DNA from: Metallosphaera tengchongensis
Lineage (GTDB): Archaea > Thermoproteota > Thermoprotei_A > Sulfolobales > Sulfolobaceae
DNA: 64,000 bases
NCBI RefSeq assembly: GCF_013343295.1
Contig: NZ_CP049074.1
Span: 1,841,501-1,905,500 of the forward strand
Reading direction: 5' to 3'
This document shows, piece by piece, positions 25,802-37,561 of the stretch. Each line of letters starts with the position of its first letter. Within the stretch, counting starts at the first letter, position 1. The notes beneath the pieces are model-generated. The model saw nothing but the letters and a program-made list of their open reading frames with translations, did not search any database and was not told where the DNA came from. The position numbers and the translations under genes are program-made.

Positions 25802-26356
25802 TTAATAGAGTAATACAGTCCTTGCGTTCTTTGACACCAACCTGCAAATAACGTCCTTCACTTCACTGCAGTTACCTTTACCTGCCATCTCCACTAGGTT
25901 CTCCTTAGAAGTAAGACCCTTTATTTCCTCTGATATCCTATTGTACTCACCTTGAGGGATTATTGTGGTCAATACGTGGGCACCCCTCTCCCTCGCTGAG
26001 AGCGCAGCGGCTACGCCCATGGCTTTCCTTCCCCCAGTAAAATCAACGTAATCTCCAACGGATATCCTGGATAAGACGCCACTCTTAAACACCTTGAAGT
26101 CCTGCGTACTGTTGATATCCTGGATAGGTATGGGAATGTCAGCCAGGTTAACTCCCTCCCCTTTACAGCACGCAAAGATGGCTTTAACCAGCTTCCACGC
26201 GAACTCTACTGACTTATCTGTGGTTCTTATTACGTACACTTCGGTTATGTCAGCGGGCACCGCATTTTCTCCTTCGTAGTTTCCAGACGTTAAATTCACG
26301 TATGTCTCAAACACACCTCCTGGAGAGGTCCCCAGGGTAGCTATCAGTTTTGCCAT
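25802..26356 (-). CDS. CARF-like / ring-nuclease-like protein, not next to CRISPR
   Basis: 184 residues from the ATG at 26354-26356; an ATG 15 bases upstream is possible but CTTAAAAAC centred 25 bases before 26356 favours the later start. The N-terminus KLIATLGTSPGGVFETYVNL and the motif DYVDFTGGRKAMGVAAALSA (about 103-122) are typical of CARF-type nucleotide-binding domains. Such domains bind cyclic oligoadenylates; short single-domain forms can degrade them (ring nucleases). No effector domain is fused and no cas gene or array is present here. Function is inferred from fold only. Confidence 0.6.
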   Translation of the reverse strand: MAKLIATLGTSPGGVFETYVNLTSGNYEGENAVPADITEVYVIRTTDKSVEFAWKLVKAIFACCKGEGVNLADIPIPIQDINSTQDFKVFKSGVLSRISVGDYVDFTGGRKAMGVAAALSARERGAHVLTTIIPQGEYNRISEEIKGLTSKENLVEMAGKGNCSEVKDVICRLVSKNARTVLLY

Positions 26357-26472
26357 AGGTAAAGGGGCCATATCAGGTTTTTAAGGATTTCTGACCCATA
26401 GACTCGAAGTAATACCACTCCAGAATATTATAACAAAAGTTTATAACCTTGGAAAATAAATTAATTATTGCT

Positions 26473-27505: not shown

Positions 27506-28156
27506 ATGTTTCTAACTCCAAAGGAGCAGGAAAAACTGCTCATATCAGTTGCTGCGGATGTGGCTAGGAGGAGAAGGGAGAAGGGACTTAAGTTAAATTA
27601 CCCTGAGACAGTGGCCATAATTACGGACTTCATTATCGAAAGCGCCAGGGAGGGTAAGCCAATTTCAAGAATAGTGAAAGAGGCTCAGGAACTGCTCACT
27701 GCGGATGACGTTATGGAGATGGTTCCCTCCATGCTAGATGTGGTCCAAGTTGAGGCGACCTTTCCAGACGGGACAAAGCTAGTCACTGTTAGGAACCCAA
27801 TAAAGGCTGAGCGCGTTAATCATGTCAAGGTCCAGGAGGGATGGGTAGAGGTTCCGGAGGAGATCGAGATAGAGGTCACCAATACAGGAGACAGGCCAAT
27901 CCAGGTAGGGTCTCACTACCATTTCTTTGAGGTCAATAGGGCGCTTAAGTTCGACAGAGAGAAGGCGTTCGGGATGCGGCTTTCGATACCCTCAGGAACG
28001 TCCGTCAGATTTGAGCCTGGGCAGACAAGGACTGTGAAGCTCAGAAGCATGGGTGGTTTAAGGAGAGTTACGGGACTTAACGGGTTGACTGAGGGCTCCC
28101 TAAACGTTGGTAAGGACGAGGCTATGAGAAGAGCTAAGGAGGAGAAATTTATATGA
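27506..28156 (+). CDS. ureAB: Urease gamma-beta fusion subunit
   Basis: 216 residues, the sum of a gamma (about 100) and a beta (about 100) subunit. The N-terminal half is gamma: [20 protein letters not shown], then [16 protein letters not shown]. The C-terminal half is beta: [20 protein letters not shown], then a [15 protein letters not shown] segment. It forms the structural shell around UreC. Its stop overlaps the ureC start by four bases. It begins a six-gene operon. Confidence 0.93.
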
Positions 28157-29823
28157 AAATTGAAAGAGAACGTTACGTGGAGCTTTACGGTCCCACAGAG
28201 GGAGATTCGGTTAGGTTGGGTGATACCGACCTTTGGTTGACTGTGGAGAGGGACATGATAGCTAAAGGCGAGGAACTGGTATTCGGTGCAGGAAAGACAG
28301 CTAGGGACGGGCTCGGACTCCTGCCCAACTCCAGAGAGGAGAACGTCATGGACTTAATTATAACAAACGCTGTAGTGTTCGATCCAGTTTTAGGAGTGGT
28401 TAAGGCTGATATAGGGATTAAGGACGGGGTAATCGTGAGTATTGGACATGGGGGAAATCCCTTCACCATGGATGGGGTAGACTTCGTTCTTGGCTCCTCC
28501 ACTGAGGTAGTTTCGGCTGAGGGATTGATAGCCACTCCAGGATTCGTGGACACACATATCCACTGGATATCCCCACAGCAAGTAATGGACGCATTATCGG
28601 CAGGTTTCACCACCTTGATAGGAGGGGGGACAGGTCCGGCAGAGGGAACAAAGGCTACCACAGTCACCCCAGGGTCATGGAACCTTAGAATGATGTTTAG
28701 GGCTTTAGACCTCTACCCAATTAACTATGGTTTAACAGCAAAAGGATCTTCCTCCTCATTGGCGATGGAGCAGGTATTGGATCAGGGAGCGTGCGGTTTC
28801 AAGATCCACGAGGACTGGGGAGCCATGCCTAGAGTAGTGGACGAGACCTTGACCTTAGCGGACCTCCGTGACGTGCAGGTTACTATACACACTGATACCT
28901 CAAACGAGAGCGGTTTCTTTGAGGACACGTTAAGGGCCATAGACGGGAGAACCATACACGCTTATCACGTGGAAGGAGCTGGAGGCGGACATGCTCCCGA
29001 TATCATAAGAATTGCTGGTGAACCCAACGTTTTACCGTCATCCACCAACCCAACAAAGCCATATACAGTTCACACGTATGAGGAGCACTTGGATATGCTT
29101 ATGGCGGTGCACCATCTCAACCCCAAGGTGCCTGAGGACGTGTCCTACGCTGAGTCCAGGATAAGGGAGGAGACCATGGCCGCAGAGGATTACCTACACG
29201 ACATAGGGGCTATCAGTATGATGTCCTCAGATTCCCAAGCCATGGGGAGAGTTGGTGAGACTGGGATTAGAACCTTTCAATTGGCCCATAAGATGAAGTC
29301 CCTAAACCTAGTCCCCATGGGAGACAACGAGAGGGCACTGCGCTACCTAGCTAAGATAACTATAAACCCTGCCATAACCCATGGAATATCGGATTACGTA
29401 GGTTCCCTTACTCCAGGTTTGCTAGCTGACGTAGTGCTCTGGGACCCTAGGTTCTTCCCAGCTAAGCCCTACATGGTAATAAAAGGCGGTGCGGTAGCCT
29501 GGGCATTGATGGGGGACACAAATGCATCCATAGCCTACGCACAGCCAGTAGTCTACAAACCAATGTTTGGATACGCCGATCGTTCCCTGTCTCTTCTATT
29601 TTCTTCCCTGGACGGTGTTGAAAGGGCGGAGAAGGAGGTAAAGAGAAAGGTGGTTCCGGTTAAGAACACTAGGGGTTTGGGTAAGTCAAATATGAGAAGA
29701 AACGATTCCCTACCAAAGATCGAGGTAGATCCTGATAAATATGAGGTCAAGGTCAACGGAGTAGTTCCAAGAGTACCCCCTTCAGAGAGGCTACCTTTGA
29801 CTAACCTATTCTTCATGTTCTGA
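28153..29823 (+). CDS. ureC: Urease alpha (catalytic) subunit
   Basis: 556 residues. Nickel ligands and active-site residues fall at nearly the numbers used for Klebsiella urease: His135 and His137 (VDTHIHWI), carbamylated Lys217 and His219 (GFKIHEDWG), His246, His272 and Asp360. The mobile-flap position equivalent to Cys319 is Val (LMAVHHLNP; His320 kept). It hydrolyses urea to ammonia and carbamate in the cytosol. The flap Cys is not a metal ligand, so activity is still expected, possibly with altered pH response or inhibitor sensitivity. Confidence 0.95.
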
Positions 29824-29827
29824 GGCG

Positions 29828-30271
29828 GTGCCGATGGAGAACGTAAAAAGACTAGATGTAGCTCCAGTAGGGGCACAAGTCAAAGATCTCGAGGTGGATA
29901 GGATCTCCCTAAGCAAGGGAAGGGTGAGGATTAGGTGCGAGGACGGTGAACACGTCCTAAACCTCCGTGGGTTAAGGGACGGGGACTACTTCATGTGGAG
30001 GAACTCAGTTTATCGGTTAATGCAAAGTAAAGAGAGAGTCCTTAAGTTCACATTAAAGGACTCTTGGGAGGCCTTCAAGTTAGGATTCGCCATCGGAAAC
30101 TTACATCAAAGAGTCATGGTTCAGGACAACTTCGTTTACCTTTCCATAGAAGAGAACAAGGTCCTGCAGGAAGCCTTCTCGGACTTTAAACCTGAAGTTG
30201 TGGAGACTAAGTTCTTCCCAAACCTGGAAATACCAATAAGGGGGGAGGTAATAGACTTTGTGGATCATTAA
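29828..30271 (+). CDS. ureE: Urease nickel-delivery protein UreE
   Basis: 147 residues. It has the UreE N-terminal beta domain and a C-terminal metal domain with the key GNLHQRVMV His motif (about 94-102). The His-rich tail of some bacterial UreE proteins is missing. It would deliver Ni(II) to UreG during urease assembly. Start is GTG at 29828 or the ATG six bases later; the distinction is not decided by the sequence. It follows ureC by four bases and overlaps ureF by 14. Confidence 0.85.
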   Translation: MPMENVKRLDVAPVGAQVKDLEVDRISLSKGRVRIRCEDGEHVLNLRGLRDGDYFMWRNSVYRLMQSKERVLKFTLKDSWEAFKLGFAIGNLHQRVMVQDNFVYLSIEENKVLQEAFSDFKPEVVETKFFPNLEIPIRGEVIDFVDH

Positions 30272-30854
30272 GGCCTTTCACCTCTTCGACAGTTCCCTTC
30301 CCTTAGGTTCGTTCAACTATTCGTTTGGAATTGAGGAGGCTTACTATCAAGGGTATGACGTGAAGGGTTTCATAAGAACTGTGATCAGGAACGTCGTGGA
30401 GAGGGGAGACGTACCCTTGGCGAGGATGGCATTCAAGGATCCGGAAAGGGCCAATGAGCTGGCGATAGCCTCTAAGGTTACCAAGGAGCTCCGTGAATCT
30501 AGCCTGAACATGGGTAGGTCCCTAGCTAAGCTTGGACTGTGTAAAGATACCTTTGTAACTAGAGTTAGGGACGGGCTCAGTCAAGGCGCCTATCCTGTGG
30601 TTGTGGCTAGATGTTGTGTCTCCATGAGAATTGATGAGGAGGTGTGCTTAGCAGGGCTCTTGTACTCTGAGCTCTCTCAGATGGTGTACTCAGCGGTTAG
30701 GTTAGGAGCCATAAACTTCGTGGAGGGGCAAAACCTAATCGAGGAGACCATAAGCGACGTTAGTTTGAGCGAAGATTTTGAGCCTTTCTGTCCAGTACTT
30801 GATGTTCTCTCCATTAATCATGAGAGGAGAGAGCCCAAGGTGTTCATGTCATGA
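30258..30854 (+). CDS. ureF: Urease accessory protein UreF
   Basis: 198 residues from a TTG start inside the end of ureE. The all-helical UreF pattern is visible: [20 protein letters not shown] near the N-terminus (the conserved D-S-x-x-P-x-G-x-F/Y-x-x-S-x-G-x-E motif). UreF acts with UreD and UreG in the activation complex that loads nickel and CO2. Slightly shorter than bacterial UreF (about 225). It overlaps ureG by four bases. Confidence 0.88.
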
Positions 30855-31474
30855 TTAGGGTAGGAGTTTTGGGTCCTGTAGGCTCAGGAAAGACTAGCCT
30901 AATAGAGTTCCTCACAAGATATTACGCCAAGAAATTTAGGGTAGCAATCTTGACTAATGACGTGGTCTCCTCCTATGACGCAATGAGGATTTACGAGAAC
31001 TTGGTTAGGAAGGACGGTATATTACCAAAGGATAATCTGCTGGGTATAGTCACAGGAGGATGTCCTCACACTGCAATCAGAGAAGACCCATCCCTAAACC
31101 TGAGGGCCCTGGAAACCCTAGAGGCTAGGGTCAAACCTGACTTAGTCTTCATAGAGAGTGGGGGCGACAACGTCATGTCCACCTTCAGTACTGCACTGGC
31201 TGACTACACAATATTCGTCCTTGACACCTCTGCAGGAGATAAGTACCCTGAAAAGGGAGGGCTTGGGATAAGCGAGAGCGATCTACTGGTCATAAACAAG
31301 GTAGACCTAGCACCTTACGTGAACGCCGACCTTGAAAAGATGAGGAAGGGCTCTATGAAGGTCAGAAAGGGGAAACCCACGATTTTCGTGAGCTTGAAGA
31401 GCGGTGAGGGAATTGATGACCTGCTAAAGGTATTGAATGAGGAGTTGGGGCTTGAGACATCTCCTAAGGGTTAG
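30851..31474 (+). CDS. ureG: Urease accessory GTPase UreG
   Basis: 207 residues. The P-loop is [10 protein letters not shown] (from about residue 8), the nickel-binding Cys-Pro-His motif is [13 protein letters not shown], and the guanine-specificity motif is [10 protein letters not shown]. It is a SIMIBI-class GTPase that powers nickel insertion into urease. It overlaps ureF upstream by four bases and ureD downstream by 38 bases, so the last four operon genes are strongly coupled. Confidence 0.93.
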
Positions 31475-32060
31475 GGATATAGAGGGAGGGATTTTAGTGG
31501 AAAGGGAGGGATCCCTCAACGCTATCTTAATTGACAACACGGTTATATTTACAAATCCCTCGGAGGTCATGGCCAACTACGACAATTTCCATTACGAGAT
31601 AGCTGTGAAGAATAAGGTCGTGACGGATCAGGCGTATAACAAGGTCCTCACCAACTCAAGGGTACATGTGGTCATAAGGGCGACCTTAGAGAACTCCAAA
31701 TATCTGCCTCACCCTATCATTCTCTACAATGGTGCTGGTATTACCATTGAGGGAGAGTTCCACGTGGTTGATAAGGCTGAAATTATGGAGGTGTTCGTCC
31801 CAGGTAGGAGAGGAATGGGCGAGAACTTCGTTAGGGGAGACGTGAAGGCTGTAACCAGGATATATAGTAGAGGAAAGTTGATAGTTTACGACGTTTTCAA
31901 GGTCAAGGACGACGACTATCTCAACCCAAACGTCATGGGAAATAAATGCTTGGTATCCTTTTTCCAGGTTGAGGACAGCGAACACCAGGTGAGCAGGGAG
32001 TTAATTGATCATAGGGGCGTATTTAGGAGGTGGTCAGAAATTACAGGACTCTGGTTTTAG
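31437..32060 (+). CDS. ureD: Urease accessory protein UreD/UreH
   Basis: 207 residues, shorter than bacterial UreD (about 270). Recognisable parts include [30 protein letters not shown] and the final [15 protein letters not shown]. UreD bridges UreF to urease and channels nickel. The start inside ureG (38-base overlap) gives a longer N-terminus; a later start cannot be excluded. It closes the operon. A UreD at the 3' end with this short length is consistent with archaeal ureases. Confidence 0.78.
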
Positions 32061-32312: not shown

Positions 32313-33498
<1,186 letters not shown>

Positions 33499-33566: not shown

Positions 33567-34397
33567 TTACTCCACTGTCATGGACGAAATTATTGTGACA
33601 CCCTCTTTCTCTAGCTCTTTCTTTACTTTCATGTCAATGTAGTTCGCCACCAGGAAAAGTTTAACAGGTTTATTGAAGAGCTGCGGGATCAACTTCTTCC
33701 TCACCACCATCTGTTCCAGTGCTCCCTCATCTGCAAAGTTCTTTATCTCGAAAACGTAGACGTAGTCGTTGGTTTCATAGAAGTCCACTTCGAATATCCT
33801 ACCCTTGTCTATTATCCCTAGGGTATCTATAATGTTACCGTGTTTAACCTTGTCTGGGTCCACCCCGTGTAGCTCTAAAGCCTCCTTATAGATCATCATG
33901 ATGGTCTTCTCTAGACCCTTACCAGCCCTATTGGTAAAACTGCCGACCTCCGTCGAGAGCTTGATCATAAGCTTGTCAAGCTCTTTTACCTCACTGGTCA
34001 GCTGCTTTACTGCCTCCTGCAGTCCCTTAACCGCCTCGCTGTGCTCTTTCAGTATTTCTCCCTGTTGCTTCACTGCCTCCTGGAGTGCCTTAATCGAGTC
34101 CCCTTGTTGCTTCACTGCCTCCTGCAGTCCCTTAACCGCCTCGCTGTGCTCTTTCAGTATTTCTCCCTGTTGCTTCACTGCCTCCTGGAGTGCCTTAATC
34201 GAGTCCCCTTGTTGCTTCACTGCCTCCTGCAGTCCCTTAACCTCTCCTTGTAATTTTCTAATAGCTTCTGTATTTTCCTCTAATTTCTTAATCACAACCT
34301 CATCCTTAAGTTTATCATAAATTTTATCAGCTAATACTGAAATAAATTTTGGGTCTTCTAGTAGTTTTTTAGTTATCTCGTCGCTTTCGCTAGCCAT
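33567..34397 (-). CDS. Coiled-coil protein with C-terminal PD-(D/E)XK-like domain
   Basis: 276 residues. An N-terminal helical head is followed by a long coiled coil (about 35-155) built from repeats of GLQEAVKQQGDSIKALQEAV type, and a C-terminal alpha/beta domain with FEVDFYETNDYVYVFEIKNF, i.e. an Asp then Glu-x-Lys arrangement of PD-(D/E)XK nucleases (DUF3782-like). Such proteins are common in thermophilic archaea; their job is unknown. A 35-residue unit is exactly duplicated. A protein of the same design lies 2.1 kb downstream. Confidence 0.65.
   Translation of the reverse strand: MASESDEITKKLLEDPKFISVLADKIYDKLKDEVVIKKLEENTEAIRKLQGEVKGLQEAVKQQGDSIKALQEAVKQQGEILKEHSEAVKGLQEAVKQQGDSIKALQEAVKQQGEILKEHSEAVKGLQEAVKQLTSEVKELDKLMIKLSTEVGSFTNRAGKGLEKTIMMIYKEALELHGVDPDKVKHGNIIDTLGIIDKGRIFEVDFYETNDYVYVFEIKNFADEGALEQMVVRKKLIPQLFNKPVKLFLVANYIDMKVKKELEKEGVTIISSMTVE
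34013..34222 (-). repeat. 105-bp tandem duplication inside the coiled-coil gene
   Basis: Two adjacent 105-base units, apparently identical, encode the 35-residue coiled-coil segment twice. The lack of synonymous differences indicates a recent duplication. Confidence 0.75.
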
Positions 34398-36487: not shown

Positions 36488-37561
36488 TCACCTCTCCTCG
36501 AAGTAACCTCCCTTCATGTACTTTACCACCGTGATGTTTAGCATCTTGCCGAGCTCCTCCGGTTTGCCCCTCTTGAGCCTGTAGACGATGAAGGGGACTA
36601 CTTCCTTGTCTTTCAGGTAGTTCCTTAGGATGTCCACCTTAGTCTTAAGCTTGAACATGTCCCTCTTCCTCAATGTTGCCTTGATTTCACCCACGTATAC
36701 CATGTTCCCCACCTCAATGTAGGCATCAAACTCCATGACCTCGCTGCCAACCTTCACCGTTTTTGGTCTCACGTCCTTCACCTCCGTTCCCTTAGACTGG
36801 AACCAGAGGATCAAGTCCTTCCTTATGTAGTCCTCTACGATCAGGCCAAAGGTGTTCTCTAGCCCGCCCACCCTCCTGTTAAGCCCCTCAACTGCCTTCA
36901 CCAACTTTGCGACTATCCTCCTTAGCTCAGCTATTGCTTTCGTGTTCTCCTCCGTCTGCTTCGCTAGCGCCTCCACCATTTTCCTCAACTCCGTTATCGC
37001 CTTAGTGTTCTCCTCCGTCTGCTTCCTCAACTCCGTTATCGCCTTAGTGTTCTCCTCCGTCTGCTTCCTCAACTCCGTTATCGCCTTAGTGTTCTCCTCC
37101 GTCTGCTTCCTCAACTCCGTTATCGCCTTAGTGTTCTCCTCCGTCTGCTTCCTCAACTCCGTTATCGCCTTAGTGTTCTCCTCCGTCTGCTTCCTCAACT
37201 CCGTTATCGCCTTAGTGTTCTCCTCCGTCTGCTTCCTCAACTCCGTTATCGCCTTAGTGTTCTCCTCCGTCTGCTTCACCAGAACCTCCATAACTTTCCT
37301 CAACTCCGTGATTGCGTTAGTGTTCTCGGTAGTTACACTCGAGAGTGACGCAAAACCCTCAACTAGCTTCGCCGTGACTTCTCTCAGCTCACTGATTTCC
37401 CTTTTCTGTTCTTCCACCCACTGCTCGTAAGCCTTTTGTCTTTCTTTGACGTCGCCTATCAATAGTTGTAGCTCTCTAACAGCTGAGGTCAAGGAGCTTA
37501 TTAGGAGGGACTCCAGCTCCTTTCTGACTATCTCTCTAACCGTATTCTCGTCAATTGCCAT
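36488..37561 (-). CDS. Coiled-coil protein with 14-residue tandem repeats and PD-(D/E)XK-like domain
   Basis: 357 residues. An N-terminal helix leads to a coiled coil (about 40-225) with seven copies of QTEENTKAITELRK, flanked by diverged versions (QTEENTKAIAELRR). The C-terminal domain has VMEFDAYIEVGNMVYVGEIK, an Asp then Glu-x-Lys nuclease-like core. The 14-residue unit equals two heptads, so each repeat lengthens a coiled coil without changing register. Same architecture as the protein at 33567-34397 but with little sequence similarity in the coil. Function unknown. Confidence 0.65.
   Translation of the reverse strand: MAIDENTVREIVRKELESLLISSLTSAVRELQLLIGDVKERQKAYEQWVEEQKREISELREVTAKLVEGFASLSSVTTENTNAITELRKVMEVLVKQTEENTKAITELRKQTEENTKAITELRKQTEENTKAITELRKQTEENTKAITELRKQTEENTKAITELRKQTEENTKAITELRKQTEENTKAITELRKMVEALAKQTEENTKAIAELRRIVAKLVKAVEGLNRRVGGLENTFGLIVEDYIRKDLILWFQSKGTEVKDVRPKTVKVGSEVMEFDAYIEVGNMVYVGEIKATLRKRDMFKLKTKVDILRNYLKDKEVVPFIVYRLKRGKPEELGKMLNITVVKYMKGGYFEER
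37010..37261 (-). repeat. Six perfect 42-bp tandem units in a coding region
   Basis: The unit begins CTCCTCCGTCTGCTTCCTCA at 37010 and recurs exactly every 42 bases through 37261, with partial units on both sides. No base difference between units was seen. Confidence 0.85.

Follow-up and report, generated by a model that had tools for sequence, protein, structure and literature searches.

The locus considered here raises the question of whether a coiled coil that carries a nuclease-like domain can be lengthened and shortened repeat by repeat while its heptad register is kept, and what such changes would mean for the protein. It lies in a stretch of 64,000 nucleotides (the window; positions 1,841,501 to 1,905,500 of contig NZ_CP049074.1) from Metallosphaera tengchongensis, a heat- and acid-loving archaeon whose genome is a single contig of 2,176,897 bp. 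On the minus strand of the window, an open reading frame (ORF) at 36488-37561 encodes a protein of 357 amino acids in which, based on the ORF itself, its orthologues and an AlphaFold model, a coiled coil is joined to a PD-(D/E)XK domain. An earlier note, made from the sequence alone, had described six exact 42-bp tandem units in this gene and proposed that they might form a phase-variable ruler. Comparison between species supported recent, in-frame and register-keeping changes in copy number, and the explanation that we regard as probable is that of a soluble, presumably oligomeric rod bearing a nuclease domain, constrained in register, free or slowly tuned in length, and acting as a spacer.

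The array and its turnover

Tandem Repeats Finder (TRF) located the array at 36981-37277, with a period of 42 bp, 7.1 copies, 100% matches and no indels (score 594). Its coding strand is the minus strand, inside the ORF, and seven QTEENTKAITELRK units are encoded (residues 97-194, with starts at residues 97, 111, 125, 139, 153, 167 and 181). In this phase, six units are the same 42-mer and the seventh differs by its final wobble base; the exact repeats of the earlier note are therefore real, although they had been undercounted by one. The flanking units that it had also claimed are present as two diverged relatives of the repeat, each set off from the array by one 7-residue heptad: VTTENTNAITELRK (residues 76-89; 37295-37336, minus strand), which shares 31 of 42 bases with the adjoining unit, and QTEENTKAIAELRR (residues 202-215; 36917-36958, minus strand), which shares 33 of 42 with the last array unit. 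In the close orthologues listed, successive unit anchors up to the domain are always 14 or 21 residues apart. An error of assembly, in the array or in its copy number, was judged highly improbable because independent genomes carry comparable arrays with species-specific fixed variants of their own; moreover, the array is short (297 bp), the exact count of seven being the value given by the assembly.

As a control, arrays were searched in a 464-kb sample of the same genome, the third stretch of which was not random but chosen around an earlier match. Only three arrays scored above 140: the one described above, a 105-bp array at 34003-34242 in a second protein of the family, and one in an unrelated ORF. 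The latter is a perfect 42-bp array of 8.5 copies of SGESVEKRTEGRVQ units (L147:7121-7477, approximately C1:1507121-1507477), in a frame of 251 amino acids without Pfam match; its period is also 42 bp, and a coiled coil is not obvious. A plus-strand ORF at 36852-37430 is the antisense of the window array and was rejected as a gene, and no inverted repeats of useful size were found flanking the window gene.

In two sister species (G012 and G020), an 84-bp unit is present in four and six copies, respectively. The units of either species are all identical, array ends apart; from one species to the other, four synonymous differences, always the same ones, recur in every unit, and the flanks differ by 7-8%. 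Each array has thus been homogenised to its own synonymous variant, a pattern of concerted evolution, and the recent expansion proposed in the earlier note was supported. Constancy of repeat number, which the earlier note had counted against its own proposal, was not found between species, where copy numbers differ. Where arrays are older, their units have come to differ at almost every synonymous site and at few nonsynonymous ones (ratio of nonsynonymous to synonymous divergence, pN/pS, of 0.12-0.26), and where the array DNA has diverged (Aramenus and others), pS reached 0.72-1.01 and pN 0.11-0.19. These low ratios indicate that the amino acid sequence of the unit has been kept by selection.

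Stalk length across the family

A profile of the nuclease domain was the main means of gathering relatives, so that stalk repeats were not a criterion of selection; some loci came from an earlier full-length search, and all were required to match the domain profile. In the resulting set of 90 distinct Sulfolobales proteins (one genome per species), a TRF array of some kind was present in the stalk of 83 and a near-perfect one in 30. The period of the near-perfect arrays was a multiple of 21 bp, or one heptad, in 29 cases (42, 63, 84, 105, 126, 147, 210 and 273 bp), with a single exception of 75 bp. In 84 of 87 stalks, the strongest period in hydrophobicity was 3.5 residues.

Lengths were compared in greedy, non-overlapping pairs. 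Where the domains shared at least 78% identity, stalk length differed in 18 of 19 pairs, by up to 98 residues, and all 18 differences were whole heptads; in the wider set, lengths differed in 29 of 30 pairs and by whole heptads in 23 of these 29, against a chance expectation of 1 in 7. Some homologues with 92-98% identical domains have stalks 63-98 residues apart (approximately 9-15 nm, taking 0.15 nm for each residue), and between domains of 97-98% identity the difference reaches 84 residues. Change of copy number with preservation of frame and heptad register, as claimed earlier, was therefore supported by comparison between species. Rad50, a long coiled-coil protein used as a control in 30 of the same genomes, measured 855-891 residues (standard deviation 11) and was of equal length within the sister pairs G012/G020 and G009/G018. 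In one Sulfolobaceae genome, the Rad50 frame is broken by several stops (G029:C1:52743-55333; sequencing error or pseudogene). According to passages of a review, coiled-coil length is usually well conserved, varying on average 3.6 times less than a comparison set does (PMC5082667). An exception is formed by the present family, which departs from length conservation yet keeps the heptad register.

The very wide range of lengths among close relatives and the homogenised units would agree with neutral drift, in which slippage in a repetitive gene yields stalks that work at any in-frame length, neither length nor register being tuned, and the perfect 42-bp array in the unrelated ORF means that this genome makes such arrays elsewhere. 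Set against the purifying selection on the protein sequence of old-array units and the near absence of out-of-register differences in close pairs, drift is an explanation that we consider quite possible, if short of probable. Recent turnover in whole-heptad steps would also agree with a tunable ruler, whose repeat number would set the reach of the nuclease to its target and whose length cells or strains would switch to alter activity; coiled-coil rulers are known, for example in the type I restriction specificity subunits treated in passages of the same review (PMC5082667). This ruler appears unlikely, since the homologues of nearly identical domain and very different stalk are unlike a fixed ruler, no target is known, and the comparisons are only between species. 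The ruler of the earlier note is weakened by those same homologues, and the span of lengths found in nature speaks against a strict one. As for phase variation, it is not supported, its usual on/off form being excluded because each change by a 42-bp unit is in frame.

Architecture, nuclease-like domain and gene context

A conserved N-terminal segment, M(A)IDExxVREIVRxELE (37499-37561, minus strand), was recognised in the alignment and precedes the stalk. In the AlphaFold full-length model, helices at residues 5-138 and 141-256 (residues 5-256 being nearly all helix) are followed by a beta-rich domain. The PD-(D/E)XK domain comprises residues 234-357 (36491-36862, minus strand), with motif I at E243, motif II at D279 and motif III at E292-x-K294, assigned by conservation: E277, D279, E292 and K294 do not vary among 20 of 20 diverse aligned relatives, nor does the motif I glutamate among eight close orthologues. 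The model of the domain (predicted local distance difference test, pLDDT, 87) has the order H15-37, E46-52, E55-65, E68-78, H80-96, E101-111, H115-121 and E125-130 (H, helix; E, strand), and most of its best Foldseek matches in the PDB were nuclease domains of the PD-(D/E)XK type, among them those of Cdn1, Can2, Card1 and EndoMS. The Pfam family PF07788 (PDDEXK_10) did not match the window domain and matched 4 of 20 aligned relatives (best E 2.4e-7). Profile and predicted fold confirm the PD-(D/E)XK-like domain that had been proposed from the sequence, and its junction to a coiled coil is supported; the predicted fold is of the PD-(D/E)XK class, with catalytic positions kept. Matches of the full proteins in Pfam, NCBIfam and PADLOC (SMC, Rad50, DruC, JetC and others) fell in the coiled coil and were rejected as compositional rather than homologous. 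No membrane-like segment was detected in the window protein (best 19-residue hydropathy 1.16).

The strong conservation of stalk-unit protein sequence and the long helix that dominates the model could also indicate that the rod is itself the working part, as a scaffold or filament, and the domain a catalytically silent DNA-binding cap; this seems doubtful to us, as such a cap would have no need of the four residues invariant in diverse relatives. In the spacer reading that we prefer, a conserved N-terminal helix would lead into a long left-handed coiled coil, which would end at the C-terminus in a PD-(D/E)XK domain of the DUF1626/PDDEXK_10 kind. Stalk units, made of whole heptads, may be gained, lost and homogenised through in-frame unequal recombination or replication slippage, with register-breaking changes removed or seldom arising and length loosely constrained. 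The rod would join several putative nuclease domains and keep them off whatever the N-terminus binds.

Several points weigh against this reading. The AlphaFold model is of a monomer, and its stalk-domain joint (residues 232-241) is of low confidence; the power of a single 14-residue unit at a period of 3.5 is not significant alone (11.6% of shuffles reach it); the compared pairs are homologues whose orthology was not established by trees; and no neighbouring gene is conserved among the loci compared, so that context gives no clue to a partner. Heptad steps may moreover reflect mutational bias, as recombination partners lie one heptad apart in a sequence built of repeated heptads, and selection for register is thus not proven: the register lock may arise from selection, from misalignment in heptad steps, or from both. 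We only tentatively extend the spacer to the whole family, as register-locked, rapidly re-sized stalks by which nuclease reach evolves through repeat number, and find this wider claim somewhat improbable. If true, it would run counter to the general rule of conserved coiled-coil length. Rods of differing length on nearly identical nuclease domains form a natural series, ready for a test of the effect of spacer length.

The second family member (276 amino acids; 33567-34397, minus strand) has the same architecture and a DUF3782 match of E=1.3e-4, below the curated cut-off. Its stalk bears the 105-bp array (34003-34242, minus strand; 2.3 copies of 35 amino acids, or five heptads), and the domain groups of the two members match profile-to-profile with 95.6% probability. 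The distance to the first member is 2.1 kb, and a TnpB-like gene (32313-33461) adjoins it. Close orthologues of the first member occur in other Sulfolobaceae genera at 62-67% identity, and none was found in five congeners. Since neighbours differ between genera, the gene has the look of a stand-alone module with a patchy distribution, and no function can be drawn from an operon; a role in mobile elements is not supported at the sensitivity of the search, as phage records, plasmids and viral contigs yielded no relative. Between two sister species, an orthologue lies between the same neighbours in opposite orientation (L048:7005-8152 and L049:7050-8201), and in one of them an 8-base inverted repeat, TGTAGCTC/GAGCTACA, is found near both breakpoints. 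Elsewhere in the window, a 189-amino-acid protein (25802-26371) weakly matches the CRISPR-associated Cas_NE0113 (E 6.5e-4, below the cut-off), and 27506-32060 holds a urease gene cluster, as judged from sequence, and a congener (L047) has counterparts of five of these genes in conserved order.

Comparison with known systems

The combination of a coiled coil and a PD-(D/E)XK domain is that of a known archaeal family, DUF1626/PDDEXK_10, with stalks filed under DUF3782. Passages of PMC1913061 describe DUF1626/PDDEXK_10 (PF07788, COG5493) as putative nucleases of the PD-(D/E)XK type from Sulfolobus and others. The window protein likewise keeps the active-site residues and an N-terminal coiled coil; it retains the motif III lysine, which in those passages is often threonine, and the turnover of stalk length seen here is not met in them. 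As in the crenarchaeal DUF3782 proteins (PMC4786415), a coiled-coil stalk stands ahead of the same kind of domain. DUF3782 stalks, however, carry a beta-layer motif (aliphatic-ATK-polar-D/E, with nonads), whereas the present ones are almost wholly heptad-based and the motif occurred in 0 of 90 relatives. Against DUF3782 (PF12644), the second member scored 22.5 bits (cut-off 24.4), and the family was not among the matches listed for the window protein. Heptad-multiple repeats in such proteins were not reported in the literature searched, which left out most subscription journals; the protein type is known, and no earlier account seems to exist of its behaving as a rod that is rapidly re-sized.

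Among type I restriction specificity subunits, EcoR124 is the repeat-number case. Those subunits share with the window protein a coiled-coil spacer beside a DNA-acting domain, but their spacer length is exact and functional in the passages that treat it (PMC5082667), while the present stalks vary by tens of residues. The likeness to the nuclease domains of EndoMS/NucS and Card1/Can2 is one of fold class (EndoMS profile match E ~0.005; Foldseek template modelling score, TM, ~0.5-0.58), confined to the fold core, and neither a CARF nor a NucS N-terminal domain accompanies it. Periscope proteins (PMC9704523) are monomeric, lie on the bacterial surface and were found by repeats of more than 50 residues, whereas the unit here is a 14-residue archaeal coiled-coil one, in a protein with no sign of surface attachment and no membrane-like segment. 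Common to both is a rod of nearly identical tandem repeats that can grow or shrink and that carries a functional domain; in the present family, repeat number varies between species.
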